Of a stretch of 33,394 nucleotides of DNA, positions 1 through 10,980 are shown one piece after another; position 1 is the first letter of the stretch, and each line of letters starts with the position of its first letter. The stretch comes from a virus. The stretch covers positions 1-33,394 of IMG/VR virus record IMGVR_UViG_3300031977_000802; one strand, written 5' to 3'. The position numbers were made by a program, and so were the translations under genes. The notes beneath the pieces are model-generated. The model was not told the origin of the DNA. It made no database searches and saw only the letters and a list, made by a program, of their open reading frames with translations.

Positions 1-112
1 GTTGTGGGTCTTCACCTTCTAGGCAGTAGTAGTCTTTAACCAGACTCTGTGCCTGTGCAGATAGGTATTCGTTACGCCCGTAATCCAGTTTAATTCCTAA
101 GTACTCACTCAT
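1..112 (-). CDS. nrdA: Ribonucleotide reductase large subunit, N-terminus only (cut by window edge)
   Basis: Reading leftward from an ATG at 112, the frame stays open to the window edge and gives 37 codons. The start reads MSEYLGIKLDYGRNEYLSAQ and continues with a VKDYYCLEGED stretch. That resembles the beginning of class I RNR alpha subunits, where a short 'LxxxYLLxGE' motif precedes the catalytic barrel. NrdA with NrdB reduces ribonucleoside diphosphates to deoxynucleotides for phage DNA synthesis. The beta subunit is in this window at 31596-32546, supporting class I. The ATG overlaps the 3' end of the MazG-like gene by 8 bases, so the two are probably co-transcribed. The catalytic domain lies outside the window. 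The identity rests on a short stretch plus the presence of nrdB. Confidence 0.72.
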   Translation of the reverse strand, partial: MSEYLGIKLDYGRNEYLSAQAQSLVKDYYCLEGEDPQ

Positions 113-404
113 CTTTAACAAATACTCCGTCAACCATCTTACCTTTACGCTGAGCAATCACGCCATAGGCTTGGCATAGGCTCTCGTATGCTGACAAACC
201 CTGCAGTTCAGCCAAGATAATCAACACAACCTGCATGTCACCAATAGCATCCGCAATTTCTTCTTTGTTATTCGCAGCAATAGCATCAACCAATTCGTTG
301 TGCTCTTCAGCCAACTTATCTAGCTGTCCTGCTACTGTACCTGCAGCAAGAATGCCACGATCTTTTGCCCAACCTAATACTAAGTGTTCCATGTTATAGC
401 TCAT
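105..404 (-). CDS. MazG-like nucleotide pyrophosphohydrolase
   Basis: A 99-residue all-alpha protein with the MazG/dUTPase-like metal-binding pattern: EExxE at residues 33-37, then E49-x2-D52-x3-D56 in 'EEIADAIGD'. Proteins of this family hydrolyse NTPs or dNTPs to the monophosphate and pyrophosphate. Marine phages often carry short single-domain versions, proposed to adjust nucleotide or alarmone pools during infection. It is preceded by an AGGA ribosome-binding site six bases before the ATG. It overlaps the 68-residue gene upstream and the nrdA start downstream, so it belongs to the nucleotide-metabolism end of the leftward operon. The family is well supported; the actual substrate is not known. 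Confidence 0.82.
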   Translation of the reverse strand: MSYNMEHLVLGWAKDRGILAAGTVAGQLDKLAEEHNELVDAIAANNKEEIADAIGDMQVVLIILAELQGLSAYESLCQAYGVIAQRKGKMVDGVFVKDE

Positions 405-600
405 CGTCTGTTCCTAGTTCGTAATCAGCATCGTCACTGAATACATCGTCAATTTCTAAATCTTCCTCAAGGTAGTCGCGCTTGTCTTCGACTACATCTT
501 GGAAGCGGTCTACGATCTGACCACTCTTAATGTCTAGTACCTCAAGCAGCAGAGTTTCCTCTAACTGCTTAAGGCGTTCACATAACTCATTGAATGTCAT
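394..600 (-). CDS. Small acidic phage protein, function unknown
   Basis: A 68-residue protein with a helical N-terminal half (MTFNELCERLKQLEETLLLEVLD) and a strongly acidic C-terminal half rich in D and E with no basic residues near the end. The pattern fits a small helical protein with a disordered acidic tail, but no catalytic or metal-binding motif is visible. The start codon overlaps the stop of the DUF3310-like gene upstream as ATGA, and its 3' end overlaps the MazG-like gene by 11 bases. Both overlaps support it as a genuine coupled gene. I recall similar short proteins from other marine phages, with no known function. Confidence 0.7.
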   Translation of the reverse strand: MTFNELCERLKQLEETLLLEVLDIKSGQIVDRFQDVVEDKRDYLEEDLEIDDVFSDDADYELGTDDEL

Positions 601-899
601 ACGTGATCAAGCATCTTAGATAGGTAGTGTTGTGCCTTCTCCAAGTCTTGCTTGCCTCCTTTATCTTCCCAACGACTCATGTACTTTATCACGTTGCCCC
701 ATAGGTAGCCAGTGAATTGCTCTTCAGACATGATAGCTTCCATGTATTCCCATGGCTGTATCGATTTCTGATAGTGCTCACCGCCTACCTGATGTTGATC
801 GGGAAAGAAAGTAGGATCATTCTCCAAGCTATCTTTAACCCAGTCAAGGAACTCTGGATCGTGCATTACATTCTCGAATGTGTATTGAACCTTACCCAT
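597..899 (-). CDS. DUF3310-like protein
   Basis: A 100-residue protein whose second half carries the DUF3310 signature: 'VGGEHYQK' then 'IQPWEYMEAI', 'GNVIKYMSRW' and 'GGKQDLEKAQHYL'. The family is very common in phage replication and nucleotide-metabolism clusters. It is sometimes annotated as a nucleotide kinase-like protein, but its activity is not established. The start at 899 is chosen over an upstream in-frame ATG because a strong CGGAGGAAGT ribosome-binding site sits directly before it. A longer start would also extend far into the phosphoesterase gene. It overlaps that gene's stop by 8 bases and overlaps the next start as ATGA. Confidence 0.82.
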   Translation of the reverse strand: MGKVQYTFENVMHDPEFLDWVKDSLENDPTFFPDQHQVGGEHYQKSIQPWEYMEAIMSEEQFTGYLWGNVIKYMSRWEDKGGKQDLEKAQHYLSKMLDHV

Positions 900-1656
900 A
901 CTTCCTCCGTAGGTAGTTGATAGATACTGGAAGCTCATCGAAGCTACCGTTGTTAACCTCATGGAACATCCAGATACCAGACCAACTGCCGTTAGTTTGT
1001 GGTGTCAGGTAGTCTTCGTCATGTACATAATAGATACCTGCGAAGAGACCAGTAACACTAGTGCCGTCAGCCTTACGTGCGAAGGCGATGTCTCTGTCTT
1101 GAACGTGGCCCATGACACACGACATCATTTTCTTCTGCAGCATTAGCTTAGCACTACTCACTGGTCTACCCATAACACCAGATGTGAAGTAGTGACAGTA
1201 CACAATACCATCTACTACTACGGGTTCTAAGAAGTCATAGACCTCCCAACCCATCTCTTCTAGTTTCAGATCGTGGTATCCAATTAGCCCTTCTAGCTTT
1301 GCATCGGATTCAATAGCACGCTCAATGCGTTGCTCGTGATTGCCCAATGTAAAGACAAGGCGTGGATTCCAACGCTTCTTTTTGTTGATGCGTAGTCGCT
1401 CCTGTTCCTCAAGTATAGGAGTCATGAATGCTTCCATACCTGTGATACCTGCTGCGATGTCGTCAGCGTAGCGTCTACCTTCAAATGATTTCTTACCTAC
1501 GTCATACACTGATAGCGAAGGCATGTCCCAGTGATCGCCTAAGTGCACGATAACATCTGGCTTCTTCTCAACAGCGTACTGTCCTGCCCATGTTAGGTGC
1601 TCGACAGTTCCGTTGGGTTTGACCTGCGTATCAGGTACGACCATGTGTTTAATCAT
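892..1656 (-). CDS. Calcineurin-like metallophosphoesterase
   Basis: A 254-residue protein with the ordered metal-ligand motifs of the calcineurin-like phosphoesterase superfamily: D9-x-Q near the N-terminus, GDHWD at 40-44, GNHE at 105-108, H155 in 'YCHYFTSG' and GH at 183-184. These residues normally hold a two-metal centre that hydrolyses phosphomono- or diester bonds. Similar genes sit beside replication genes in marine podoviruses, where DNA-end processing or nucleotide salvage has been suggested; the substrate here is unknown. The start overlaps the HNH gene's stop as ATGA. A GGAAGAAGAA purine run lies just upstream. The length is normal for a single-domain member. Confidence 0.88.
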   Translation of the reverse strand: MIKHMVVPDTQVKPNGTVEHLTWAGQYAVEKKPDVIVHLGDHWDMPSLSVYDVGKKSFEGRRYADDIAAGITGMEAFMTPILEEQERLRINKKKRWNPRLVFTLGNHEQRIERAIESDAKLEGLIGYHDLKLEEMGWEVYDFLEPVVVDGIVYCHYFTSGVMGRPVSSAKLMLQKKMMSCVMGHVQDRDIAFARKADGTSVTGLFAGIYYVHDEDYLTPQTNGSWSGIWMFHEVNNGSFDELPVSINYLRRKYG

Positions 1657-2024
1657 TTCTTCTTCCTCTCCTCAGCGGTCTTCGCTTTGTGGCACGGCTT
1701 ACACAGCACCTGAAGGTTGTCACTTTCGCAGAACAAGTTGGAAACAAAAGAAGGAAGATCATCGTAGCACTTCAAAGACCCTGCGGGTTTGATGTGATCT
1801 ACTTGAACTTCCTTCGCTTTGAACCATCCCTGACACTCGGCACACTGGTGTTCTACCTTGTGCCTTTGTCCAGTTACTCTTCGCTGTGAATCCTTAAGCA
1901 CTTGGTACTTAACAGGGTAGCGAGAGAATGCTCCACGTAGTGCGGTACGTATGAACTGAAAATACCTAGACTCTGTCCAAGTATCTCCTGCTCTACACTT
2001 TACTCCTCTCTTGGGGCTTTGCAT
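1653..2024 (-). CDS. HNH endonuclease
   Basis: A 123-residue basic protein with a zinc-ribbon-flanked HNH nuclease core: C61-x2-C64, then the catalytic D76-H77, N103 in 'SDNLQVLC', and C108-x2-C111-H112. The two Cys pairs bind structural zinc and the His-Asn-His set binds the catalytic metal for DNA cleavage. Its position within the replication genes is compatible with host-DNA degradation, a recombination or packaging nuclease, or a homing endonuclease. It is not flanked by intron signals, so a free-standing nuclease is more likely. The ATG at 2024 lies within the end of the 77-residue gene and has only a weak ribosome-binding site, so the exact start is less sure than the family. Confidence 0.87.
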   Translation of the reverse strand: MQSPKRGVKCRAGDTWTESRYFQFIRTALRGAFSRYPVKYQVLKDSQRRVTGQRHKVEHQCAECQGWFKAKEVQVDHIKPAGSLKCYDDLPSFVSNLFCESDNLQVLCKPCHKAKTAEERKKK

Positions 2025-2233
2025 TTGACTTCTATGTCTCCGCGTGATCCATCGTGAATAGTGAATGAGATGTCATTCTTAAACCCGACACGGTCATCGT
2101 ATAAGAATGAAACAAAATCAGACACCACATCTTCTAAGTCGAAGCTTCTTGCTTTGTAGACGGTGGTGTCGAATCCATCGTCGTGTTGGAACAAGAAGGT
2201 GTAGGTGTAGACATCTTCACTGGTGGGTTCCAT
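2000..2233 (-). CDS. Small protein overlapping the exonuclease 3' end, function unknown
   Basis: A 77-residue protein, acidic and aromatic in its first two-thirds ('DVYTYTFLFQHDDGFDTTVYKARS' region) with a charged end. No known motif is visible. The alternating hydrophobic pattern suggests a small beta-rich fold. The start is supported by an AGGAG ribosome-binding site nine bases before the ATG. The gene overlaps the last 100 bases of the exonuclease in another frame, which is long for this operon. It also overlaps the HNH start by 25 bases. The exonuclease tail in the shared stretch is low-complexity (Ser/Thr/Pro), so this frame is probably the more constrained of the two. Confidence 0.6.
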   Translation of the reverse strand: MEPTSEDVYTYTFLFQHDDGFDTTVYKARSFDLEDVVSDFVSFLYDDRVGFKNDISFTIHDGSRGDIEVKCKAPREE

Positions 2234-2892
2234 AGTTCGTTCTCCTCTCGTCTAAGGTAGAGGAGTCGCCCATTCTCTACTGCTCTATCATAACCAAGGT
2301 GTTCCGCACAGATCGAGAACATTTCATACTGATCCCCCTCTGCATTGGTTAACAGTTTGTTTGCTTTCACAGGGCCGATGCCTTTGACACCGACAATGTT
2401 ATCAATGCGATCACCTGTTAAGAACTGCATGTAGAAATTGAGCAACCCCTCTTCAGCAGTGACGTAGTACATCTCGTCCTTGACAAAGTTATAATGCCAT
2501 CCTTGAACCTGATCAAAGTCTTTGTCAAGGCTAACGATAATACCATCATCACCTAATTGGGTAGCACGTATAGCGATAGCGTCATCTGCTTCCTGACCTT
2601 CTGCTACACTGGCGTTCCATTCCTGTTGAAGGAACTGACGTAGCGTTTCAAAGTGTACAGGCTTCTTAAGTCCGGCACGATTACCCTTATAAGGAACAGT
2701 GACGGCTATCTCGTTACGGAAGTTACCCTTTCCAGTGAGGAAAAGCTCCCAGTTAATAACATCCAATGTTCCAATAATGTCAGTGACAAACTTATCCATC
2801 GTCTTAGTGGCAACGCTTGCACTTTCCTTGTTGCAAGCGAAGCCAATACGATAGCACAACATGTCAGCGTCTATGAGTGCTACCCGTTCCAT
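2134..2892 (-). CDS. 5'-3' exonuclease (FEN/T7 gp6-like)
   Basis: A 252-residue protein of the PIN/FEN nuclease fold. Metal-binding acids appear in order: D8 and D10 ('LIDAD'), E101-x-D103-D104 ('EADD'), D123 and D125 ('SLDKDF'), D161 and D164 ('GDRIDN'). They are followed by a helix-hairpin-helix 'GVKGIGPVKA' at 168-177 that grips DNA. T7 gp6 and related enzymes remove RNA primers, degrade host DNA and process recombination ends; that is the likely role here. The start overlaps the SSB stop as a single shared base. The last ~33 residues are Ser/Thr/Pro-rich and overlap the 77-residue gene, so the conserved domain ends near residue 225. Confidence 0.9.
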   Translation of the reverse strand: MERVALIDADMLCYRIGFACNKESASVATKTMDKFVTDIIGTLDVINWELFLTGKGNFRNEIAVTVPYKGNRAGLKKPVHFETLRQFLQQEWNASVAEGQEADDAIAIRATQLGDDGIIVSLDKDFDQVQGWHYNFVKDEMYYVTAEEGLLNFYMQFLTGDRIDNIVGVKGIGPVKANKLLTNAEGDQYEMFSICAEHLGYDRAVENGRLLYLRREENELWNPPVKMSTPTPSCSNTTMDSTPPSTKQEAST

Positions 2893-3305
2893 TATAGAAC
2901 CTCTTCGATCTCTTCGTCGGCAGCTACAGCATCGCTGATGTACTCTACCATGTCGGTCACGATTAGTTTCTTAATGGACATCGACACTCCCTTCTTACCC
3001 GCAGGGTTTTTCCAAGAGTAACCGTCGAATACGATTGTTGCTTTAGAACCGTTGCCGATTGTAACGCCTTTCAGCTCGTTACCTGATGTGTCGTATGGCT
3101 TGATCTCAAAGTTCTTAGACTTAGCTGTCAAGAAGTTATTGCGATCATCACCTTTGTTACGCACATTGATACCCATGTCTTCAAGCTTCTCTACCTGAGC
3201 GTCAGATAGATTAGAGATGTCGACTTGGTATGCACCAGATAGGCTGTTGCGCTCGTAAAGGAACGGCCAGTAAAGTGTAACGTCTGTGAATTTAACTAGG
3301 GACAT
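2892..3305 (-). CDS. Single-stranded DNA-binding protein (gp2.5-like)
   Basis: A 137-residue protein starting MSLVKFTDVTLYWPFL. It has an OB-fold-like pattern of short beta stretches and ends with a strongly acidic tail (AADEEIEEVL). That tail is the hallmark of T7 gp2.5-type SSBs, which use it to contact polymerase and helicase. The gene lies directly between polymerase and exonuclease, matching this function. The start at 3305 is chosen because AAAGGAGAAA precedes it; the open frame extends upstream only through the promoter region. It has its own sigma-70-like promoter at 3336-3364, suggesting a need for more SSB than the polymerase read-through would give. Confidence 0.82.
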   Translation of the reverse strand: MSLVKFTDVTLYWPFLYERNSLSGAYQVDISNLSDAQVEKLEDMGINVRNKGDDRNNFLTAKSKNFEIKPYDTSGNELKGVTIGNGSKATIVFDGYSWKNPAGKKGVSMSIKKLIVTDMVEYISDAVAADEEIEEVL

Positions 3306-3335
3306 AATGTTTCTCCTTTGATTAGGTACGACTAG

Positions 3336-3364
3336 ATAATAATACTCGCTCAGTTGCATGTCAA
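3336..3364 (-). promoter_or_regulatory. Sigma-70-like promoter for SSB
   Basis: On the minus strand the sequence reads TTGACA, a 17-base spacer, then TATTAT. The -35 is perfect and the -10 matches five of six positions of the sigma-70 consensus. It sits in the only sizeable gap between replication genes (3306-3372), about 30 bases upstream of the SSB start codon. It should drive SSB, exonuclease and the downstream leftward genes, separately from the early transcript. Confidence 0.78.
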
Positions 3365-3372
3365 GTATTATT

Positions 3373-5013
3373 TTAGTGGGTCTCGTACCAGTTGTTACCC
3401 ACCTTAGCTTCAGCATCCACTGGGACACGGAAGTTTAAAGCATCTCCTGCTAGTGCAGCAGCTTTAACCATTAGTTCGGCAGCCTTCTCAGCCTGATCCT
3501 CTCGAACCTCTAGCTGAATCTCATCGTGTACAAATGCTACCTGTTTGTAATCGATGTTCGCTTTGCGTAGTAGCTTGTGTGCTTCAATGCACCACTGCTT
3601 TGCAATGATACTACCGCACGACTGAAGCAAACTGTTCAGTGCTGCGTGCTCACTGCGTATGATCACACGTCTACCATCCAGTGCGGGTACGTAACCCTGA
3701 CCTGCTAAGCGTTGCACCTTACGCAACAGCTTCTCAAGTGCGGGCATGTTGCCCATGAACTTATCTATAAGTGCCTTACCCTTTTGAGCAGAGCCTCCAA
3801 CGATGCTTCCGATCTTAGCCGGTCCTGCACCATAGAGGAGCGCATAGATAAAAGTCTTTGCTTGATCTCGGGTGTCAAGACCCGCAGCTTTCTGGTTGGC
3901 TGTGTGTATGTCGCCCTCCAATAGTTCATGTGTGTATGCCTCGTCTTGCATGTAATGAGCAAGGCAACGTAGCTCGATACCAGATAGGTCAGTACCGACT
4001 AGCTTGTAGCCATTAGGTACAGTCCAACACTGACGTGACTCCTTACCATACTCTGATTTGACAGACGTAATCTGTCCCATGTTGGGAGAGTAATGAGCCA
4101 TGCGTCCAGTGATAGTACCAATAGGATTGACACGACCATGAACACGACCATCAGCCTCACAGTTATCGATCCAACTATCGAGCATACCAACACGCTTCTG
4201 TAGCATAAGGTACTCAGCAATGAGTTGTGCTTCAGGGCGGTTGATAGCCTTGAGTGTTGGTTCGTCTACGATGATTGAACCCTTCTCAGTTTTCTTAGTG
4301 AACTCTACACCAAGACTCTGAAGGCGGGATGCAATCTGCTTGCGTGATCCTACGTTGAACTCTTCGACCTTATCCTTAAGTCGCTTGCCTGTCTTCTCTG
4401 ACCAACGCTCATGAACTAGCGGAGGGAATACCTCTTGCAGTTCCATAGTGATAGTAAGCATACGCTCACGCATCATCGTTAGTAGGTCAGTGCATAGACG
4501 CTCATCAAGCATGAAGCCATTGCGTTCTTGTAGAGCCATGTGCATAGCCACACGATTCTCTAGGTCAAGAGATTGCGATGGGTCTTTCCATGTGTTGAGT
4601 TGTGCGTCGAGGTGTTTGTGTAACATCTCTAGCACGTCAACGTCACGCTTACAGTAGGTGATCATCTCATCAGTCAGTCCACCGTCGAAGTCTTCCGTAT
4701 CGAAGTCCATCTTATCAAAGCCAAGACGTTTGCCCCATGCCTTGAGAGAGTGACCACCTTCAATAACAGGATTAACTAAGCGTGACATGACTAACGTGTC
4801 AACCGCATTCTTTACTGGGATAGTGATACCCCATACCTTCCGTAGTACAGGAGCATCGAAGCCTATCAGGTTGTGGGCAGCAACTTGGTGTCCGTTAAGG
4901 TATGACTGTAAGCCAACGCCTTGTGTCCACACTTTTGTTTCGCCATCCTTCTTAGTCACACAACACCAGATTTTATCGTGTGCTAGGTTAGTTTCGATGT
5001 CCAAGTAAATCAT
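3373..5013 (-). CDS. Family A DNA polymerase with 3'-5' exonuclease
   Basis: A 546-residue replicative polymerase. The N-terminal proofreading domain has ExoI 'YLDIETN' (D5, E7), ExoII 'HNLIGFD' (D53) and ExoIII 'YCKRDVD' (Y120, D124). The polymerase domain has motif A 'DLSGIELR' (D342), motif B 'RDQAKTFIYALLYG' (R382, K386, Y394) and motif C 'HDE' (496-498). It is shorter than T7 gp5 (about 700 residues), with reduced exonuclease and thumb regions but every catalytic motif intact. Tyr at the motif B position equivalent to T7 Y526 is expected to discriminate poorly against some analogues. The ATG at 5013 overlaps the upstream stop as ATGA and is preferred to a GTG four codons earlier. It works with the adjacent primase-helicase and SSB. 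Confidence 0.95.
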   Translation of the reverse strand: MIYLDIETNLAHDKIWCCVTKKDGETKVWTQGVGLQSYLNGHQVAAHNLIGFDAPVLRKVWGITIPVKNAVDTLVMSRLVNPVIEGGHSLKAWGKRLGFDKMDFDTEDFDGGLTDEMITYCKRDVDVLEMLHKHLDAQLNTWKDPSQSLDLENRVAMHMALQERNGFMLDERLCTDLLTMMRERMLTITMELQEVFPPLVHERWSEKTGKRLKDKVEEFNVGSRKQIASRLQSLGVEFTKKTEKGSIIVDEPTLKAINRPEAQLIAEYLMLQKRVGMLDSWIDNCEADGRVHGRVNPIGTITGRMAHYSPNMGQITSVKSEYGKESRQCWTVPNGYKLVGTDLSGIELRCLAHYMQDEAYTHELLEGDIHTANQKAAGLDTRDQAKTFIYALLYGAGPAKIGSIVGGSAQKGKALIDKFMGNMPALEKLLRKVQRLAGQGYVPALDGRRVIIRSEHAALNSLLQSCGSIIAKQWCIEAHKLLRKANIDYKQVAFVHDEIQLEVREDQAEKAAELMVKAAALAGDALNFRVPVDAEAKVGNNWYETH

Positions 5014-5276
5014 GCGATCACCCACACCACTGCGTTACGGTTAGAAGTTGTCTTGCGTTTACGTCCAGAGTCCACAATGAATCCGTCATCTTCTAGGCTC
5101 TTGCGTACACCGCACACTGATTGTAGTTTGATGCCAGTCTTGATCGACATCTCTTCAAGGGTCATCCCCTCACTGCCTTCCTTCTGCACTGCCTCGTATA
5201 CCTTGGCTTGCATCTTTGGCATGTGGTCTAGTACTGAATCGTATGCTTCAAGTGAAGTTAGTTGCATCTGTCTCAT
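5010..5276 (-). CDS. Small winged-helix-like DNA-binding protein
   Basis: An 88-residue protein with a helix-turn-helix or winged-helix pattern: 'MTLEEMSIKTGIKLQSVCGVRKSLEDDGFIVDSG' reads as a recognition helix followed by a two-strand wing, with a basic 'GRKRKT' loop near the end. This resembles short MarR/LexA-type wHTH domains that bind DNA. It sits between the polymerase and primase-helicase genes, so it may regulate the operon or aid replication; neither role can be decided from sequence. The ATG at 5276 is chosen over one seven codons upstream because AGAGGAA lies eight bases before it. Its stop overlaps the polymerase start. Confidence 0.72.
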   Translation of the reverse strand: MRQMQLTSLEAYDSVLDHMPKMQAKVYEAVQKEGSEGMTLEEMSIKTGIKLQSVCGVRKSLEDDGFIVDSGRKRKTTSNRNAVVWVIA

Positions 5277-5277
5277 C

Positions 5278-6879
5278 TTATAATTCCTCTTCGTCATTTC
5301 GTTCGAACATCCTACCAGTCACGTGATTAAATAACAACCTACCTGCCGGACCAGTGATCCCACAGAAACGGTTCTTAAGTACACGTACATACGTAGTGTT
5401 TCGTTCTTCAGGGTCTTCAGCCTGTCCATTACGTTCAAGGCCGAGCACCATGTCAGATAGCTGAGCGATTGCACCAGAGCCACGTAGCTGAGCCAGTGAC
5501 GTTGATGCACCCTCTTCATGTCCCTTACCTTCAGGGCGTTTGAGATGTGATACGACAATCAATGCTACGCCAGTCTCCTGAACAAGCATACGTAGTCGTG
5601 TCATGATTTCATCTATCGCCTTGCGCTCATCACCACTAGCCTGAGCAGAAACCACAATAGAAATGTGGTCAAGAAAGATGTAGCCACAACCCAATCCTTT
5701 AGCAAGGTATCTGACGCGGTTGATAATGTTATCCACGCTAGTAGAGCCAAAGTGATCAAATAGGTAGAGTCTACCAGTACCAAGAGTAGCGTTGAACGCA
5801 TCGTCTTTCTCCTCTTGTGTTGCTTCACAGTCCGGCAAATGTAATGGTTTGTTAGCGGCTAAACTCATGATAGATAGGCCAGTCTTCTTGGTTCCTTCCT
5901 CTAGGAACAGAGCACCGATACCTTCATCAGTCTTGTTGAAGATGTGCCAGATCATCTCACGTAGCACTTGTGATTTACCTAAGCCAGAACCTGCCGTGAT
6001 AGTAACCAACTCACCCTTGCGGATACCGTATGTCAGTTTGTTGAGTGCCTTCCACGGGTAGTCACAGTCACATGGAGCAATGGGAGCCATCACTTCATCG
6101 TACAGCGTAGCACCATTGATGATGCCATCAGGTACGAATTGATCTGCGTTCCACCATAGGTCACTGAACTCTTTGTTCAATCCTTGGCGTTGATAATCGC
6201 ACGCATCCTTCTGATTAGTGGCGTGCTTGAATACCTTAGCCTTAGCACCGAACAGCTCAGCAACTTGGTTGCTTGCCTTAAGTCCTGCTTCGTCATTGTC
6301 AAAACAGATGACGATGTTCTCGAAGGTAGATAGCCATTCATACTGTGCCTTACAATCCTTCAGTGCACCGCTTGCACCGTTGCGGATAGACACGACAGGC
6401 CACTTACTGCCGAGCAGTTGATAACCTGCCAGAGCATCAAGCTCACCCTCTACGATAGTGACATACTTACCACCTGCTGAGAACAAAGACTGACCGTACA
6501 AACCTGCCGTCTTCCAGTCACCTTGAATGATGAAATCCTTGGTAGGTTTGCGAGTCTTCGTAGCGCAGAGCACACCGTCCTTAGATGTGTATCCAAAGAT
6601 GATGTCCTCTCCGTCTAGGAAACACTTGTATTTCTCGCATGTCTCCCTTGAGATTCGACGGTCGGTCAATGTCCTGTATTGCTTGTGTGTTAGCATGTCA
6701 ATGACGTTGTTATTTAGCGGAGTCGTTGTCACGATTCTCTCCCTTGGTGTTGCCACTTGGTCAACTTGTTTACGTTCATGACAGACAAAGCAAGTGCTCC
6801 ATCCGTCAGTGTTAATTGATAGCCCGTCACTGCTACCACAGTCAGGGCATGGTAGATGTGTCTCAGCCCAGTCAGCCAT
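5278..6879 (-). CDS. DNA primase-helicase (T7 gp4-like)
   Basis: A 533-residue bifunctional replication protein. An N-terminal zinc ribbon (C11, C14, C30, C33) recognises priming sites. A TOPRIM primase domain follows, with E145 in 'VEGELDA' and D194/D196 in 'CFDNDEAG'. The C-terminal RecA-type hexameric helicase has Walker A GSGLGKS at 297-303, an acidic 'LEEGT' near 326-330, Walker B 'IFLDH' at 401-405, H445 in 'SHLKRP', a 'GASTSLAQLRGSGAIAQLSD' stretch and an arginine-finger-like 'KNRF' at 502-505. It unwinds the fork and makes RNA primers for the polymerase encoded just downstream. Length and order match the T7 family. The start ATG lies inside the tiny ORF at 6872-6934. Confidence 0.95.
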   Translation of the reverse strand: MADWAETHLPCPDCGSSDGLSINTDGWSTCFVCHERKQVDQVATPRERIVTTTPLNNNVIDMLTHKQYRTLTDRRISRETCEKYKCFLDGEDIIFGYTSKDGVLCATKTRKPTKDFIIQGDWKTAGLYGQSLFSAGGKYVTIVEGELDALAGYQLLGSKWPVVSIRNGASGALKDCKAQYEWLSTFENIVICFDNDEAGLKASNQVAELFGAKAKVFKHATNQKDACDYQRQGLNKEFSDLWWNADQFVPDGIINGATLYDEVMAPIAPCDCDYPWKALNKLTYGIRKGELVTITAGSGLGKSQVLREMIWHIFNKTDEGIGALFLEEGTKKTGLSIMSLAANKPLHLPDCEATQEEKDDAFNATLGTGRLYLFDHFGSTSVDNIINRVRYLAKGLGCGYIFLDHISIVVSAQASGDERKAIDEIMTRLRMLVQETGVALIVVSHLKRPEGKGHEEGASTSLAQLRGSGAIAQLSDMVLGLERNGQAEDPEERNTTYVRVLKNRFCGITGPAGRLLFNHVTGRMFERNDEEEL

Positions 6880-6934
6880 GGCACACCGCCACGATAGCCA
6901 TGACAGCTAGGTTAAACATAATCATTTCAATCAT
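6872..6934 (-). CDS. Possible 20-residue membrane peptide
   Basis: An ATG at 6934 opens a 20-codon frame, MIEMIMFNLAVMAIVAVCHG, that is almost entirely hydrophobic and could span a membrane once. The ATG overlaps the stop of the 77-residue gene as ATGA, and the frame ends 8 bases inside the primase-helicase gene. It therefore fills the gap between them and may couple their translation. A GAGG lies about ten bases upstream. It may be a true small membrane peptide or simply a translational bridge; very short ORFs like this arise by chance. Confidence 0.35.
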   Translation of the reverse strand: MIEMIMFNLAVMAIVAVCHG

Positions 6935-7164
6935 GGTTTCAATACCTCATCTGCGTTGTCCATCTTAAGCAAGACGTGCTCATACTTCTCAGCTATACGT
7001 AGTAACTGAGACATGACGTGTTGTTCTTGAGGGTTGTTCATGTAGCGGACGATCTCACGCAGTGCCACGACTACGCCAGACTCATCAATGAATTGAGCAC
7101 AATCAAATACTTCGAAGTAATGCTGTGCTTCTGTGAAGTTTTCTTGAGTATCTATAGAGTCCAT
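6931..7164 (-). CDS. Small helical protein, function unknown
   Basis: A 77-residue acidic protein that looks all-helical, with 'QHYFEVFDCAQFIDESGVVVALREIVRYMNN' and 'HVMSQLLRIAEKYEHVLLK' as two amphipathic helices. I recognise no domain. AAAAGGAA lies about eight bases before the ATG. It is the first gene downstream of the promoter at 7238-7266 and precedes the primase-helicase, so it heads the replication transcription unit. Its stop overlaps the start of the 20-codon ORF. Confidence 0.6.
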   Translation of the reverse strand: MDSIDTQENFTEAQHYFEVFDCAQFIDESGVVVALREIVRYMNNPQEQHVMSQLLRIAEKYEHVLLKMDNADEVLKP

Positions 7165-7237
7165 CTTCGTATTCCTTTTAATAAAAGATTAATACTTAAG
7201 ATGCTGTGTGCTGTCCCGTGTCTCTATAGTAGGACTG

Positions 7238-7266
7238 AGGGTAGCACGTTTGCATCTATGCGTCAA
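7238..7266 (-). promoter_or_regulatory. Extended -10 promoter for the replication unit
   Basis: On the minus strand: TTGACG, 17 bases, TACCCT, with TGC directly before the -10. Spacing and TGC element match three rightward promoters in this window (10981, 15732, 23582), and the -10 is identical to that at 23582. The match to the sigma-70 -10 is poor, so activity probably depends on the extended TGn element or an activator. It overlaps the end of the zinc-ribbon gene and leaves a leader of roughly 65 bases before the 77-residue gene. Confidence 0.62.
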
Positions 7267-7435
7267 CGTTTAAGTATTCCAGATCATCATCACTAGCTAG
7301 ATCAAGTCTGTCGTGTGTGACGATGCCCGATACTGACAGACATTCATTGCACATGTCAACGAATTGATTTGTCTTGATGTCCTTACGGGTTGATTCGAAG
7401 TCTGTTAGTTCTTCGTTACATACTACGCAGTGCAT
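7256..7435 (-). CDS. Small zinc-ribbon protein
   Basis: A 59-residue protein with two CxxC pairs, C3-x2-C6 and C29-x2-C32, spaced as in a treble-clef or zinc-ribbon fold, followed by an acidic tail (DLASDDDLEYLNVDA). Such small zinc proteins in phage early regions often bind nucleic acid or host proteins, but no specific function can be named. The ATG at 7435 is preferred to a GTG three codons earlier because AAGGAG lies eight bases before it. It overlaps the upstream HTH-like gene by 13 bases, and its 3' end carries the promoter for the next unit. Confidence 0.65.
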   Translation of the reverse strand: MHCVVCNEELTDFESTRKDIKTNQFVDMCNECLSVSGIVTHDRLDLASDDDLEYLNVDA

Positions 7436-7722
7436 GGTTTCCACTCCTTGCTAAGCCATTGTAAAGAGAGGCCATCGCCAGTCATGCTGTCAGGTACGTG
7501 TGACAGTCGATCCTGTGCTCTTGCTTTATCTCTCCGTCTCTTGTGCCCACCTGTAACAGTGCCACGGTGCTTCATGTTAACACCTGCCTTGACCCCTCGT
7601 CTAGTCACTGCACTAGCAGAGAGGCCGTAGCGTTTACCGATGTCCTCAGATGTGAGGTCGGTGGTCTTTAGTAGGTGCACGATCTCCTCATCTTGGAACG
7701 TGCTTGTCTTTTTGGATGTCAT
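7423..7722 (-). CDS. Basic helix-turn-helix protein
   Basis: A 99-residue protein. Residues about 10-45 ('EEIVHLLKTTDLTSEDIGKR' then 'YGLSASAVTRRGVKAG') read as a helix-turn-helix of the homeodomain-like or resolvase-like type. They are followed by a very basic linker (HKRRRDKARAQDR). This suggests a DNA-binding protein, perhaps a transcription regulator acting on the nearby control region or on host promoters. A GGAGG lies ten bases upstream of the ATG. The start overlaps the stop of the 27-codon membrane peptide gene as ATGA, so the two are probably translated together. Function is inferred from fold only. Confidence 0.62.
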   Translation of the reverse strand: MTSKKTSTFQDEEIVHLLKTTDLTSEDIGKRYGLSASAVTRRGVKAGVNMKHRGTVTGGHKRRRDKARAQDRLSHVPDSMTGDGLSLQWLSKEWKPCTA

Positions 7723-7802
7723 CCTAAGTAACCCTCCAAATAGGCTGCCATAAATAGACAGCCGAGAATAATTGTTAGTACATAAGGCACGCGATCAAAC
7801 AT
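7719..7802 (-). CDS. 27-residue single-span membrane peptide
   Basis: The short frame MFDRVPYVLTIILGCLFMAA plus seven residues carries one clear hydrophobic segment at residues 6-22. The ATG overlaps the stop of the 62-residue gene upstream as ATGA and its own stop overlaps the start of the HTH gene the same way, so it sits exactly in the reading chain. GGAGGAAG precedes the ATG. These overlaps on both sides make it much more convincing than its length alone. A small inner-membrane peptide acting early on host membrane processes is possible; no homologue is recognised. Confidence 0.58.
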   Translation of the reverse strand: MFDRVPYVLTIILGCLFMAAYLEGYLG

Positions 7803-7990
7803 CACTCTTCCTCCACTACAGGTACGTCACGCCATTCTTCTGCAACCTTTTGGGATGCTATGCCCTGCATAGTTATTACCTCTTCCCACTTCTGCTGAAG
7901 GATTTGCTTATCCCAGTTAAACGTAGTGTCTCTACTAATGTCTCTCACTATCCAACGTAGTTCATTAGTTGCTACCCAGTTACTAGCCAT
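7802..7990 (-). CDS. Small early protein, function unknown
   Basis: A 62-residue protein (MASNWVATNELRWIVRDISR start) with a Trp-rich helical N-terminal half and an acidic end (VVEEE). No motif is recognised. The ATG at 7990 is chosen over the GTG directly before it because AAGGAGGAG lies about seven bases upstream. It begins at the last base of the preceding gene's stop (TGATG arrangement) and ends in the ATGA that starts the membrane peptide gene. It lies in the cluster of small early genes likely to act on the host. Confidence 0.6.
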   Translation of the reverse strand: MASNWVATNELRWIVRDISRDTTFNWDKQILQQKWEEVITMQGIASQKVAEEWRDVPVVEEE

Positions 7991-8169
7991 CACAGCTCCT
8001 CCTTAATCCAGTACTGCCCTCGACAGTCCTTGTCCTGCATGACAAAGCCCTGCTTGAGTGCTAGTTCGAACAGCTCTTCACCATCCTTCTCGAAGTTAAA
8101 CGCGGGCGCGTAGTGTTTGAATAGGTAGTCGCACATCTGTGGTTGTGACATCATCGTTAGTGTGGTCAT
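7990..8169 (-). CDS. 59-residue early protein, function unknown
   Basis: Starting at an ATG at 8169, this frame encodes MTTLTMMSQPQMCDYLFKHY, continues with a charged 'FNFEKDGEELFELALKQGF' helix, and ends in KEEL. The TGA shares one base with the next gene's ATG, a tight junction typical of this operon. The coding stretch fills what would otherwise be a 180-base gap. GAGG lies about eleven bases upstream. The pattern looks like a small helical protein with an aromatic N-terminal face; no family is recognised. Confidence 0.6.
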   Translation of the reverse strand: MTTLTMMSQPQMCDYLFKHYAPAFNFEKDGEELFELALKQGFVMQDKDCRGQYWIKEEL

Positions 8170-8171
8170 GA

Positions 8172-8474
8172 TTAGTAATCCTCTGATTCAATTGTTTCTG
8201 TTAGGTAGTCGGTGATCTGTTGATCTGTCATCGCTAGGTTGATCGGTGGTTCTCCTATACCACAGCCGATCTCTTCGCCATCCTGATCGAACAGCGCCCA
8301 GTCTACCCATTCCCAATCGCATTCAGTGTATCCGTAGTAGTCGTCGCTACTATCGCAAGTGTACTTACTTCCTTTGTGTGGTGGTTGGTTGAAGTAGTGA
8401 GTCACCTCCACAGTGAACTCACACATTTGACTAATGTTATCTCTGTTCTCACTCTCGATCTCGAAGAAGCTCAT
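8172..8474 (-). CDS. Acidic early protein, function unknown
   Basis: A 100-residue, strongly acidic protein rich in aromatic residues, including a 'DDYYGYTECDWEWVDWALFDQDGEE' region and a glycine turn before a helical C-terminus (MTDQQITDYLTETIE). Highly acidic early phage proteins are sometimes DNA mimics that inhibit host nucleoid or restriction proteins; this one has the charge but no diagnostic motif, so that is only a possibility. GGAGGTGTGAGCA precedes the ATG. It overlaps no neighbour but is spaced by only 2-3 bases from each. Confidence 0.6.
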   Translation of the reverse strand: MSFFEIESENRDNISQMCEFTVEVTHYFNQPPHKGSKYTCDSSDDYYGYTECDWEWVDWALFDQDGEEIGCGIGEPPINLAMTDQQITDYLTETIESEDY

Positions 8475-8477
8475 TGC

Positions 8478-8651
8478 TCACACCTCCATTACCATCGTAC
8501 ATTTGCCGTCATCATCTTCAAACATGATAACGTAGCTGTTACCTGTCGCGTCTTGATAGTCTTGACCTGATTGATCCGCATCAACAGGGCACTGCGAAGA
8601 GTAGATAGTTATCCACTCGTTCGCGTTTACATTAGCTAACACTATGAACAT
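8478..8651 (-). CDS. 57-residue early protein, function unknown
   Basis: An ATG at 8651 opens a 57-codon frame beginning MFIVLANVNANEWITIYSSQ, with a later 'SYVIMFEDDDGKC' strand-turn region and a TGA at 8478. The alternating hydrophobic pattern suggests a small all-beta protein. The first codons overlap the last ten bases of the papain-like gene, and AAAGAGG lies eight bases before the ATG. The next gene's ribosome-binding site lies across its stop. It fills an otherwise unexplained gap in a packed operon. No family recognised. Confidence 0.6.
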   Translation of the reverse strand: MFIVLANVNANEWITIYSSQCPVDADQSGQDYQDATGNSYVIMFEDDDGKCTMVMEV

Positions 8652-9073
8652 TTGCCGTACCTCTTTGCTTTACGTTCTGCGTTCTTGGATTGCTTGCGGG
8701 TCACTTCCCACACTAGTTTTGGTTGGTGTCTACGTCCTTTGGTCCAGTCTTGCACGACCCCATGACGCACCGCTACGATGTGCCCACGTGTCAGCACTAG
8801 ATAAACTTTTGTTTTGTCTGCTCTCTGTTCAAACTGGTTGATCGTGCGTGCACCTGTCATCACTTGTTTAAGCACTAGCCCCGCCTTCTCATAAGCTTCC
8901 TTTAGTGGGTTCAGTGTCATGCCCTTGCGTGGCTTACGTCCGTGTTCTGCAAGGTGTGCGTGCGCTTTCTTGTAAGGCATCTGACCCGCAATAGCTAAAG
9001 CCTTTACCGTGCAGTCACCTGACTCTCTGAAGCGATCAGAGACCGCTTCACAATCTTTAAAATTAATAGCCAT
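8642..9073 (-). CDS. Papain-like fold protein (putative cysteine protease-like)
   Basis: A 143-residue protein. 'GDCTVKALAIA' places C21 at the start of a helix, 'YKKAHAHLAEHGRK' follows, and H98 in 'TRGHIVAV' and D109 in 'VVQDW' come later. The order Cys, His, Asp with these contexts matches small phage proteins with a papain/C39-like fold, so C21-H98-D109 is a plausible catalytic triad. The last ~30 residues are highly basic (RKQSKNAERKAKRYGK) and may bind nucleic acid. In the early region it could cleave or modify a host protein. The fold assignment is from memory of related phage proteins and activity is untested. Confidence 0.6.
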   Translation of the reverse strand: MAINFKDCEAVSDRFRESGDCTVKALAIAGQMPYKKAHAHLAEHGRKPRKGMTLNPLKEAYEKAGLVLKQVMTGARTINQFEQRADKTKVYLVLTRGHIVAVRHGVVQDWTKGRRHQPKLVWEVTRKQSKNAERKAKRYGKCS

Positions 9074-9091
9074 CTCTGATACCTCCTCAGA

Positions 9092-9388
9092 TTAAAAGTC
9101 TTCTACAATGACGTGACCGTTCTCACAGTCAATCACTGTTGTGTTGTGGCGTAGATCGTTCTCATGGCGGTCAATGCTGTATGCCTTCATCGCTTCCTCG
9201 ATAGATTCGTACTCGCTGAAGCAACAACGCATTGCTACGCGATCCCATTCCAAATCTTCGCCTAGTTCTTCGCTTAAATCCTCCCAGTATTCCGCCAGTG
9301 CACGTGCTCCTTGTGGGGACCATGCTGCGTATTCGTCGCACATTAGATCAGAAATCATTTCGTATACAGTTACAGTTTTATACATCAT
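9092..9388 (-). CDS. Conserved-looking early protein, function unknown
   Basis: A 98-residue acidic helical protein containing 'CDEYAAWSPQGARALAEYWEDLSEELGEDLEWDRVAMRCCFSEYES'. I recall this arrangement from hypothetical proteins in diverse phages and plasmids, with no known role. The ATG at 9388 is chosen because AAGAAGG precedes it. The frame extends further upstream only into the 49-codon gene. Placed early in the leftward transcript, it is a candidate host-interaction protein, but nothing in the sequence shows its target. Confidence 0.65.
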   Translation of the reverse strand: MMYKTVTVYEMISDLMCDEYAAWSPQGARALAEYWEDLSEELGEDLEWDRVAMRCCFSEYESIEEAMKAYSIDRHENDLRHNTTVIDCENGHVIVEDF

Positions 9389-9389
9389 T

Positions 9390-9539
9390 TTAGCGTACCT
9401 TCTTAATAACAATTGTTGTTGGTTTAACACCAGTAACCTTGAAGTAATGGTCTGATGCGAACTCAGCTTTTACTGGGTGATCATACGTTTGCAAGTGTTT
9501 ACCGTCTTGATCGACTAGCTTGTAGAATGTTTTAGTCAT
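9390..9539 (-). CDS. 49-residue basic early protein
   Basis: An ATG at 9539 opens the frame MTKTFYKLVDQDGKHLQTYD and continues through 'KAEFASDHYFKVTGVKPTTIVIKKVR' to a TAA at 9390. The pattern (strand, strand, helix, strand, basic end) looks like a compact fold. CTGGAGCAA gives a GGAG ten bases before the ATG. The TAA ends one base before the ATG of the next gene, whose ribosome-binding site lies inside this frame. It occupies an otherwise empty 150 bases. No family is recognised. Confidence 0.62.
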   Translation of the reverse strand: MTKTFYKLVDQDGKHLQTYDHPVKAEFASDHYFKVTGVKPTTIVIKKVR

Positions 9540-9600: not shown

Positions 9601-9876
9601 TTAGTATAATTGCTTGCGCTCTACGCATCGACAGATGAACGAAACGCCTCGCTCTTTCTGTCGCTCAGTTGGTGCGAAATAGTGGCGTAGACTCATTTCA
9701 TCGGACAGCACCGGATCGCCTGAAGATTCGTACTCATCAGCATAAATCTTTAGGTCCAACTCTAGCGCGCTGAGCGCATCTTTCTTTCTAGCAAACAGCG
9801 TTGTAAGTGCTGTTGGCTTGGTGTTGTCACGGTAGAAAGATTCAACGCGTAGTTCATAAACGTATTTATTTGACAT
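9601..9876 (-). CDS. First gene of the leftward early operon, function unknown
   Basis: A 91-residue protein with mixed charge. It has an N-terminal strand region (YVYELRVESFYRD), a central helix (KKDALSALELDLKIYADEYES) and a C-terminal 'VSFICRCVERKQLY'. No motif is recognised. AAAAGGAAAA lies nine to ten bases before the ATG. It is the most promoter-proximal leftward gene, directly after the boxA-containing leader, so it should be among the first made on infection. First genes in phage early operons often disable host defence or shut off host functions, which is a hypothesis only. Confidence 0.62.
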   Translation of the reverse strand: MSNKYVYELRVESFYRDNTKPTALTTLFARKKDALSALELDLKIYADEYESSGDPVLSDEMSLRHYFAPTERQKERGVSFICRCVERKQLY

Positions 9877-10059
9877 GGTATGTTTTCCTTTTGGGTTGTT
9901 TGCTTAATCAAAAGCTCTGTCGTTTGTTGATCTATTCGGATGCCCTTTCGATCAGTGACAAAGCTTTTTGTTAAGCCCACTTAGCAACTTGTTTTATCTT
10001 GAAGGGTTCGCCTAGCCGATACCGTTCACCTTATTCAAGCGATTCAGTGTAAATACAAA

Positions 10060-10072: not shown

Positions 10073-10185
10073 TGCTCACAACCAGAACCCTCTCTCTGTT
10101 TTCAGCTACCTGATCCCACGCGCTAGGGCGTTGCTACTAGGGGGTTGCGTCCACATGTGCCAGAGTGGTGTGCGAAGGTTCCGAG

Positions 10186-10198
10186 TTGTTAAAGAGCG
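10186..10198 (-). promoter_or_regulatory. boxA antitermination site (rrn-like)
   Basis: The minus strand reads CGCTCTTTAACAA. This is the boxA sequence of gammaproteobacterial rRNA leaders except C for T at the first base, and it contains the phage nut boxA consensus CGCTCTTTA. boxA RNA binds NusB and ribosomal protein S10, which load onto RNA polymerase and suppress Rho termination. It lies about 45 bases into the transcript expected from the promoter at 10249-10277, ahead of the whole leftward early operon. Confidence 0.66.
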
Positions 10199-10208
10199 AT
10201 CACCGAAG

Positions 10209-10239
10209 CGATAAGTGAATGATAGAGGAACGCTTATCG
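10209..10239 (-). promoter_or_regulatory. Hairpin immediately upstream of boxA (boxB-like)
   Basis: CGATAAG and its exact complement CTTATCG are separated by 17 bases, forming a 7-bp stem in the leftward leader RNA, ending ten bases before boxA. The order hairpin then boxA matches rrn antitermination leaders (boxB-boxA) and is the reverse of lambda nut sites. The loop is long, so the hairpin may be only moderately stable. Confidence 0.4.
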
Positions 10240-10248
10240 AGTTGTCTA

Positions 10249-10277
10249 ATAATACTTTTTCATAAGCTTATAACCAA
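10249..10277 (-). promoter_or_regulatory. Candidate leftward early promoter (proximal)
   Basis: On the minus strand: TTGGTT, 17 bases, TATTAT. The -10 matches five of six and the spacing is ideal; the -35 is weak (TTG only). It would start transcription near 10241, just upstream of the hairpin-boxA leader, which is the layout expected for an antiterminated early transcript. It is one of two leftward candidates here. Confidence 0.45.
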
Positions 10278-10281
10278 ATTG

Positions 10282-10310
10282 AAGCACCATGACGCAGTGC
10301 TTTTTTATTT
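10282..10310 (+). terminator. Rho-independent terminator (rightward)
   Basis: AAGCAC at 10282-10287 pairs exactly with GTGCTT at 10297-10302 around a 9-base loop and is followed by a T-rich run to 10310. It is a good intrinsic terminator in the rightward direction only; read leftward, the stem is followed by CAATTTG. No rightward gene precedes it, so it probably blocks spurious or antisense rightward transcription. Confidence 0.62.
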
Positions 10311-10412
10311 GTAGACAGTCTGATCTTGACCTATCAGAACATGACGACGAATGCAAAGAACATTTAGTTATAGCCTCCTGGTACCTTTGGTTATAACGGC
10401 TGTAAGTTGTTG

Positions 10413-10442
10413 ATTATAAAGAGGAATCGAGTTCTCTCTTAA
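10413..10442 (-). promoter_or_regulatory. Candidate leftward early promoter (distal)
   Basis: On the minus strand: TTAAGA, 18 bases, TATAAT. The -10 is a perfect consensus and the -35 matches four of six. It would produce a leftward transcript passing through the terminator-like stem in its inactive orientation and then through the boxA leader. Together with the candidate at 10249 it could give a tandem early promoter. Confidence 0.45.
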
Positions 10443-10617
10443 CTTGACCTGACCTACCGCCTCGGCTCAAAAACTCTTAGGGAGCCTCTGAGGAGCTTCT
10501 AGGGCGTAGATCAATTAGTTATAAAGCTATGTCCTGTTATAACTAGGGAGGTTCTAAGCTTATAACTGGGACGACTAGGGAGACTGAAGCGAAGGTGTGA
10601 ATACAGTTGGGGGTGTA

Positions 10618-10640
10618 AACTGTTTAGTACTACAACAGTT
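10618..10640. repeat. 23-bp palindromic repeat, copy 1 (operator-like)
   Basis: The arms AACTGTT and AACAGTT are exact complements around TAGTACTAC, whose first eight bases are themselves palindromic, so the whole element is a near-perfect dyad. A second copy lies 64 bases to the right. Dyads of this size usually bind a dimeric regulator. A half-site-like ACAGTTG lies just upstream near 10603. Confidence 0.6.
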
Positions 10641-10681
10641 GTGTGTATCTATAGTAGGGTGCTTCACTAATACATTCATTC

Positions 10682-10704
10682 AACTGTTTAGTATTACAAC
10701 AGTT
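10682..10704. repeat. 23-bp palindromic repeat, copy 2 (operator-like)
   Basis: Identical to copy 1 at 22 of 23 positions, the only difference being T for C in the centre (TAGTATTAC). The 64-base offset is about six helical turns, so two bound dimers would lie on the same DNA face and could loop or cooperate. Between the copies lies TCTATAGTAGG, which also occurs beside the promoter at 7238-7266. Confidence 0.6.
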
Positions 10705-10720
10705 ATGCTGTACAACACTA

Positions 10721-10751
10721 GGGAGGGTCTAGGGAGGGGCGGGGGAGGGGG
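10721..10751 (+). other. G-quadruplex motif
   Basis: Six runs of three or more G (10721-10723, 10725-10727, 10732-10734, 10736-10739, 10741-10745, 10747-10751) are separated by loops of 1, 4, 1, 1 and 1 bases. This far exceeds the minimum for an intramolecular G-quadruplex, with short loops that favour great stability. The surrounding DNA is AT-rich. It lies 17 bases beyond the second palindrome and about 230 bases upstream of the late promoter. Confidence 0.72.
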
Positions 10752-10980
10752 TTGTGTTTGCAGTGGTGGTGGTGCTGCTTCTCAGACACAAAAAAGAGGT
10801 AAAATAGAACTAAATAAGAATGGTTCTCATTAGCTACTTAACCTCTGTTAATCTGTGCTAAGTCTTTGAAATCTAAGGCGGTCTGCGGAGACAGGGATAC
10901 TCTCCATACCCGCTTGAGTTGACCTATGGAAAAGGTGAGGGAGTGTCTAGGGAAATAATAAAAAAAGTAGTGCTAGGGTA

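Follow-up and report, generated by a model that had tools for sequence, protein, structure and literature searches.

A candidate ribosomal-type antitermination leader with two boxA sites and a covarying helix ahead of the early operon of a marine phage

A compact boxA leader

The leftward early operon of a marine phage is preceded by a leader that, judging from its sequence, probably acts as a compact antitermination signal of the kind found in ribosomal RNA (rrn) operons, loading host Nus factors onto RNA polymerase. Comparison with other loci demonstrates the boxA sites of this leader, their conservation, a covarying helix, recurrence of the arrangement in other phages and a topology like that of Escherichia coli rrnB; from the known role of boxA we infer binding of NusB–S10 and resistance to Rho. 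Phage antitermination via boxA is known from phages that bring their own N protein, and our search of the literature on boxA and phages, with most subscription papers outside its reach, found no description of an N-free phage boxA leader. Unrelated phages appear to copy the host ribosomal signal, helix included, and with the copied signal, early transcription would withstand Rho from the very first transcript. The original prediction of a boxA leader in this DNA is real at its core, its stem is wrong, and the element is larger than first described.

The source virus, which infects bacteria, is represented by an IMG/VR virus contig of 33,394 bases, analysed over its whole length and here called the window. 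Its early operon (Table 1) encodes, after a first gene that precedes the others, an HTH protein, primase-helicase, DNA polymerase A, exonuclease, HNH, phosphoesterase, DUF3310 and MazG-like proteins; the packaging and structural genes run rightward, opposite to it. The portal is distantly similar to portals of HMO-2011-like or related podoviruses, and among named phages we found neither a DNA match to the window nor a match to its terS. An attempt to assign a host through genome contigs turned up no more than four contigs, whose metagenome bins belong to different bacterial phyla, and was taken as uninformative. The window has no match in Rfam, and no rRNA genes follow the leader. The statement that the phage has no visible RNA polymerase or N/Q-like gene stood to the extent that searches of the window detected neither a T7-type RNA polymerase nor N or Q; two of the family searches (PF00940 and PF11438) lacked a working positive control. 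N proteins are short and diverse.

Table 1. Positions of the leader elements and early genes in the window
Feature	Position	Strand	Remarks
Predicted sigma-70 promoter, TAGACA-18-TATCAT	10219..10248	(-)	10/12 consensus matches; start expected at ~10212
Hairpin, AUCGC-UUCG-GUGAU	10212-10199	(-)	Abuts boxA1 on its 5' side; boxB-like position
boxA1, CGCTCTTTAACAA	10198-10186	(-), early-transcript strand	Exact GYTCTTTAANA match
Long helix, 5' arm	10176..10197	(-)	GCUC (boxA1), UUUA unpaired, ACAAC, CGGAACCU
Branched insert between the helix arms	10091..10175	(-)	Own covarying stems; helices 4, 6 and 8 with compensatory changes
Long helix, 3' arm, GGGUUCUG-GUUGU-GAGC	10074..10090	(-)	Complements boxA1 and its 3' flank; stops 2 nt before boxA2
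boxA2-like site, CGCTCATTAACAA	10072-10060	(-)	One base off consensus; 126 nt downstream of boxA1
Second leader hairpin, AAAAGCUUUGUC...GACAGAGCUUUU	9910..9968	(-)	From the fold; sequence kept in L002 and L083; before the first gene
First gene of the leftward early operon	9601..9876	(-)	91 aa, without family match
Remaining genes of the leftward early operon	105..9430	(-)	

boxA1, its hairpin and its promoter

From its G onward, boxA1 fits GYTCTTTAANA exactly, as had been predicted of all but its first base. This consensus, derived by Baniulyte and co-workers (PMC5725501), is gammaproteobacterial and may not be that of the host. The record of 33,394 bases has a single GCTCTTTAACAA, and dinucleotide shuffling of the 1.6-kb leader region produced an exact consensus match in just 7 of 1000 trials. 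With two mismatches tolerated, the frequency of the motif across the window does not exceed chance (6 sites compared with 4.8), so that the weight lies on the exactness of the boxA1 match, on where it stands and on its being conserved.

A comparable TTGACA/TAGACA box takes the place of the predicted promoter in the close relatives L002, L083 and L094. The hairpin before boxA1 reads AUCAA-GUGA-UUGAU in L094 and CGAC..GGC..GCC..GUCG in L083 and L164, and is only weak in L002. It is not the stem first proposed, a 7-bp pairing of 10209-10215 with 10233-10239: the letters of that stem are complementary, but the 60-nt stretch folds like its shuffles (z -0.46), the arms are not conserved in an alignment of close relatives, and they overlap the promoter-like sequence, so that the 5' arm would fall upstream of the predicted start site. 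Because the hairpin listed in Table 1 adjoins boxA1, the rrn-type order of hairpin and then boxA stands, with other coordinates.

A covarying helix between two boxA sites

The single deviation of boxA2 from consensus is shared by L002, L083 and L164, and in L094 and L005 this site is an exact GCTCTTTAACAA; both L094 sites are exact. In the folded leader the GCUC of boxA1 and its flank, ACAAC-U-CGGAACCU, pair with GGUUCUG-GUUGU-GAGC directly before boxA2. Since part of boxA1 is thereby paired, the helix and NusB–S10 may compete.

We measured pairing of the boxA1 region with the 34 nt before boxA2 and set it against ~2900 windows from the same locus. In the phage studied here the arm duplex reaches -27.1 kcal/mol, which none of 2974 random windows equalled, and the arms likewise paired better than all random windows in L164, L094, L264, L290 and L326. 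Pairing was weaker in L002 (2/2915 random windows as good), L083 (16/2925) and the E. coli prophage L284 (82/2818), and modestly better than random windows in L294 (31/2923) and L265 (37/2850).

The helix is kept through sequence change. The ACAAC/GUUGU pairing of the window is replaced by ACAGU/ACUGU in L002 and L083, and L094 keeps the layout with other paired sequences. Across four homologous leaders, RNAalifold gave 37 pairs, 13 of them with compensatory changes, counts that are few and come from four related sequences in which any change could reflect a single event. The slid controls give a clear contrast: 98.6% of the cells at paired positions can pair, as compared with 27-43% for slid partners, and the observed covariation was reached by none of 500 shuffles.

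Conservation among relatives

Related loci were gathered with terminase and helicase queries and de-replicated to 89 leader clusters. Seven of these carry an exact consensus boxA, with eight sites on the transcript strand; the antisense, reversed and complemented controls gave none, and the shuffle mean was 0.41. The boxA1 word GCTCTTTAACA is identical in all four close relatives that carry the leader (L002, L083, L164 and L094), while its flanks covary. Comparison of the relatives, by which the original prediction was to be judged, thus retained boxA1, lost the proposed stem and found the leader missing in several phages. The whole leader is absent from the close relatives L085, L165, L167 and L169, and several phages with terS 76-85% identical lack it, so the leader comes and goes as a cassette. 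It is missing as well from the related cultured phages Ss1 and VA-RY-3; together with its absence from close relatives, this means that phages with this way of life can do without the element.

Recurrence in other phages

Pattern scans for two boxA sites found the boxA1–helix–boxA2 layout in L259 and L265 (one phage type), L264, L290, L294 and L326. At least five phage types that are unrelated or at most distantly similar to the window thus share the layout; two of them (L265 and L294) have helix statistics that are weak on their own. In these loci the two boxA sites are 118-124 nt apart (118-126 nt with the window included, 202 nt in L094) and the 3' arm stops, where measured, 1-4 nt before boxA2. 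Of the window proteins tested, terminase alone had a match in these loci, at 29% in L326. The element and the terminase genes point away from each other in L326 and L294, as in the window, and a covariance model built from four window-type leaders detects L326, which was outside the model, with an E value of 1.2e-4.

Tandem boxA matches within coding repeats, which serve as a natural control, show no helix of this layout. Several other non-coding tandem boxA arrays also have no helix; thus, boxA and helix need not go together. A scan for GTTC-type tandem boxA returned coding repeats only, and Corynebacterium phage P1201 (L332), which has tandem repeats with a boxA-like word, was set aside as unrelated.

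Two further kinds of leader came to light. On 68-73-kb contigs without a match among named phages, boxA-like words stand in series, each followed by a short hairpin (L346:3590-4230, and similarly L353, L354 and L358); these leaders resemble repeated nut sites. The E. coli prophage L284 (L284:1510-1840), which lies beside an integrase at tRNA-Thr, has several boxA-like sites, as does L324, with GCGCTGACAAAGCGC hairpins directly before boxA and hence the order hairpin and then boxA; the same hairpin is found in a 933W-like phage, in a region annotated as nutL.

Comparison with ribosomal operons and a proposed mechanism

E. coli rrnB, our positive control for a boxA that enters a long-range helix, has a hairpin directly before boxA, and part of this boxA pairs with the 16S trailer where the leader–trailer helix ends; its spacer holds a second hairpin and boxA. 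In such operons, according to PMC10250234, boxA-bound NusB is presumed to keep boxC, the segment behind boxA, close to where RNA leaves the polymerase, so that boxC pairs with the trailer once the trailer emerges. The phage leader resembles this arrangement in its consensus boxA, the hairpin 5' of boxA, the entry of boxA into the arm of a long-range helix and a second boxA downstream (with its one deviation), the rrn order being compressed into ~150 nt. It differs in that its helix closes ~85 nt rather than 16S rRNA, in that there is no rRNA and the operon behind it is protein-coding, and in that its 3' arm lies right against boxA2, where rrnB has a tRNA and ~300 nt in between.

On the preferred reading, host RNA polymerase would start at the sigma-70 promoter, recognized by its consensus match, ~15-20 nt upstream of boxA1. 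The short hairpin would emerge, followed by boxA1, to which host NusB–S10 would be expected to bind; SuhB, NusA and NusG would then join and render the polymerase Rho-resistant over the ~310-nt untranslated stretch behind boxA1 and the ~10-kb operon. Some 100 nt later the 3' arm would emerge and pair with boxA1 and its 3' flank, like the 16S leader–trailer helix. This helix would take up or displace boxA1 and leave boxA2 single-stranded at the helix end, where it could be bound instead. Where the gap permits a loop, the 3' GAGC could alternatively pair with the GCUC of boxA2 itself, and the minimum-energy folds of L265 and L294 favour such a local hairpin at boxA2; a hand-over or a second-chance switch is therefore possible. 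We likewise infer that boxA1 hands over to boxA2 and that no phage protein is needed. More tentatively, hairpin, boxA1, helix and boxA2 may form a recurrent module by which unrelated phages load the host's ribosomal antitermination complex with no phage protein involved, the 3' arm being an anti-boxA that can pair with either boxA and so moves the Nus factors on from boxA1 to boxA2, a suggestion that we regard as possible and somewhat short of probable.

Alternative readings of the leader

Like the nut sites of lambda and P22, the leader places boxA in an early phage transcript, where host Nus factors would be expected to act, and a hairpin beside boxA belongs to the ingredients of lambda nut as well. 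An unrecognised, N-like, arginine-rich phage protein might thus bind the leader hairpin by boxA and be required for antitermination, and the hairpin that prophage L284, retrieved by the same tandem-boxA search, shares with nutL directly before its boxA2 is in keeping with this. We nevertheless consider it unlikely. The loops of the hairpin before boxA1 vary even among close relatives (UUCG, AACA, AUCA and GUGA), the order is hairpin and then boxA, two boxA sites are joined by a helix, and no lambda-type boxB lies shortly 3' of boxA1, where the long-helix arm is found as in rrnB; in this the early judgement that the order is not that of lambda nut was correct. No N or Q family was found, the N36 search among them having been run without a positive control. 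The HTH protein of the window (7423-7722) has a basic stretch, KRRRDKARAQDR, but this stretch is not kept in the boxA-bearing L094, and L085, which is without boxA, has the gene; as an arginine-rich N candidate it was rejected because it is not conserved.

A folded leader could also serve RNase III processing or translation control, with boxA as a by-product or as a repressor site of the suhB kind. The helix is real and long enough for processing, and boxA represses suhB expression in E. coli (PMC5725501); suhB and the other non-rRNA boxA genes described there are similar, too, in having an N-independent boxA outside rrn, an independence that would also hold for the phage. The suhB boxA, however, represses from near the start codon, and the search of that study looked for boxA within ~50 nt of a start codon, whereas here the distance to the first start codon is 310 nt for boxA1 and 184 nt for boxA2, in a structured leader. 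As boxA1 keeps its letters whereas the loop and large parts of the arms vary, and as boxA is the element common to unrelated phages, we hold this second alternative to be quite improbable.

Cultured phages with boxA clusters

Cultured E. coli phages of the phiEco32-like group carry boxA clusters of their own. phiEco32 has four exact sites at 73,619-74,273 (L370:7620-8274) and NJ01 has five (L367:4155-4848), all on the early strand in non-coding early DNA, some of them 15-33 nt behind promoter-like sequences; a reversed-pattern control gave none. Several exact sites on the early strand, sigma-70-like promoters and a non-coding setting are features that these phages share with the window. They belong to an unrelated phage group, and unlike in the window no boxA1–boxA2 helix was found. 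In the 12 kb examined of phage 7-11, also phiEco32-like, no boxA was found; its authors state that some antitermination strategy remains to be defined (PMC8948821). The clusters of phiEco32 and NJ01 give a direct test in cultured phages of that group.

Sites in such numbers, four to five in phiEco32-like phages and two exact ones in L094, would also suit a sponge, an abundant early tandem-boxA RNA that titrates NusB–S10 off ribosomal operons and lowers host rRNA synthesis, but we think this most improbable, given that the early mRNA itself carries the window sites in its 5' leader, that boxA1 can be held in the helix and that promoter–boxA distances are short, as for a cis-acting signal.

Other features of the window

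Between the divergent operons (window 10262-10570 and 10618-10705), TTATAAC words are repeated and an inverted repeat, AACTGTTTAGTA.TACAACAGTT, occurs in two copies; words and repeats are possible origin or operator sites. A tRNA-His call inside the tail fibre gene (18874-18967, minus strand) is probably false. A C-rich run on the transcript strand, CCCCCTCCCCCGCCCC, is found at window 10724-10752, with TTTTTTGTGTC nearby at 10788-10798. Both lie in the divergent region, where the run is kept in 25 and the nearby word in 34 of 140 leaders, with no antisense occurrences, and phages Ss1 and VA-RY-3 have C-runs that resemble the run of the window.
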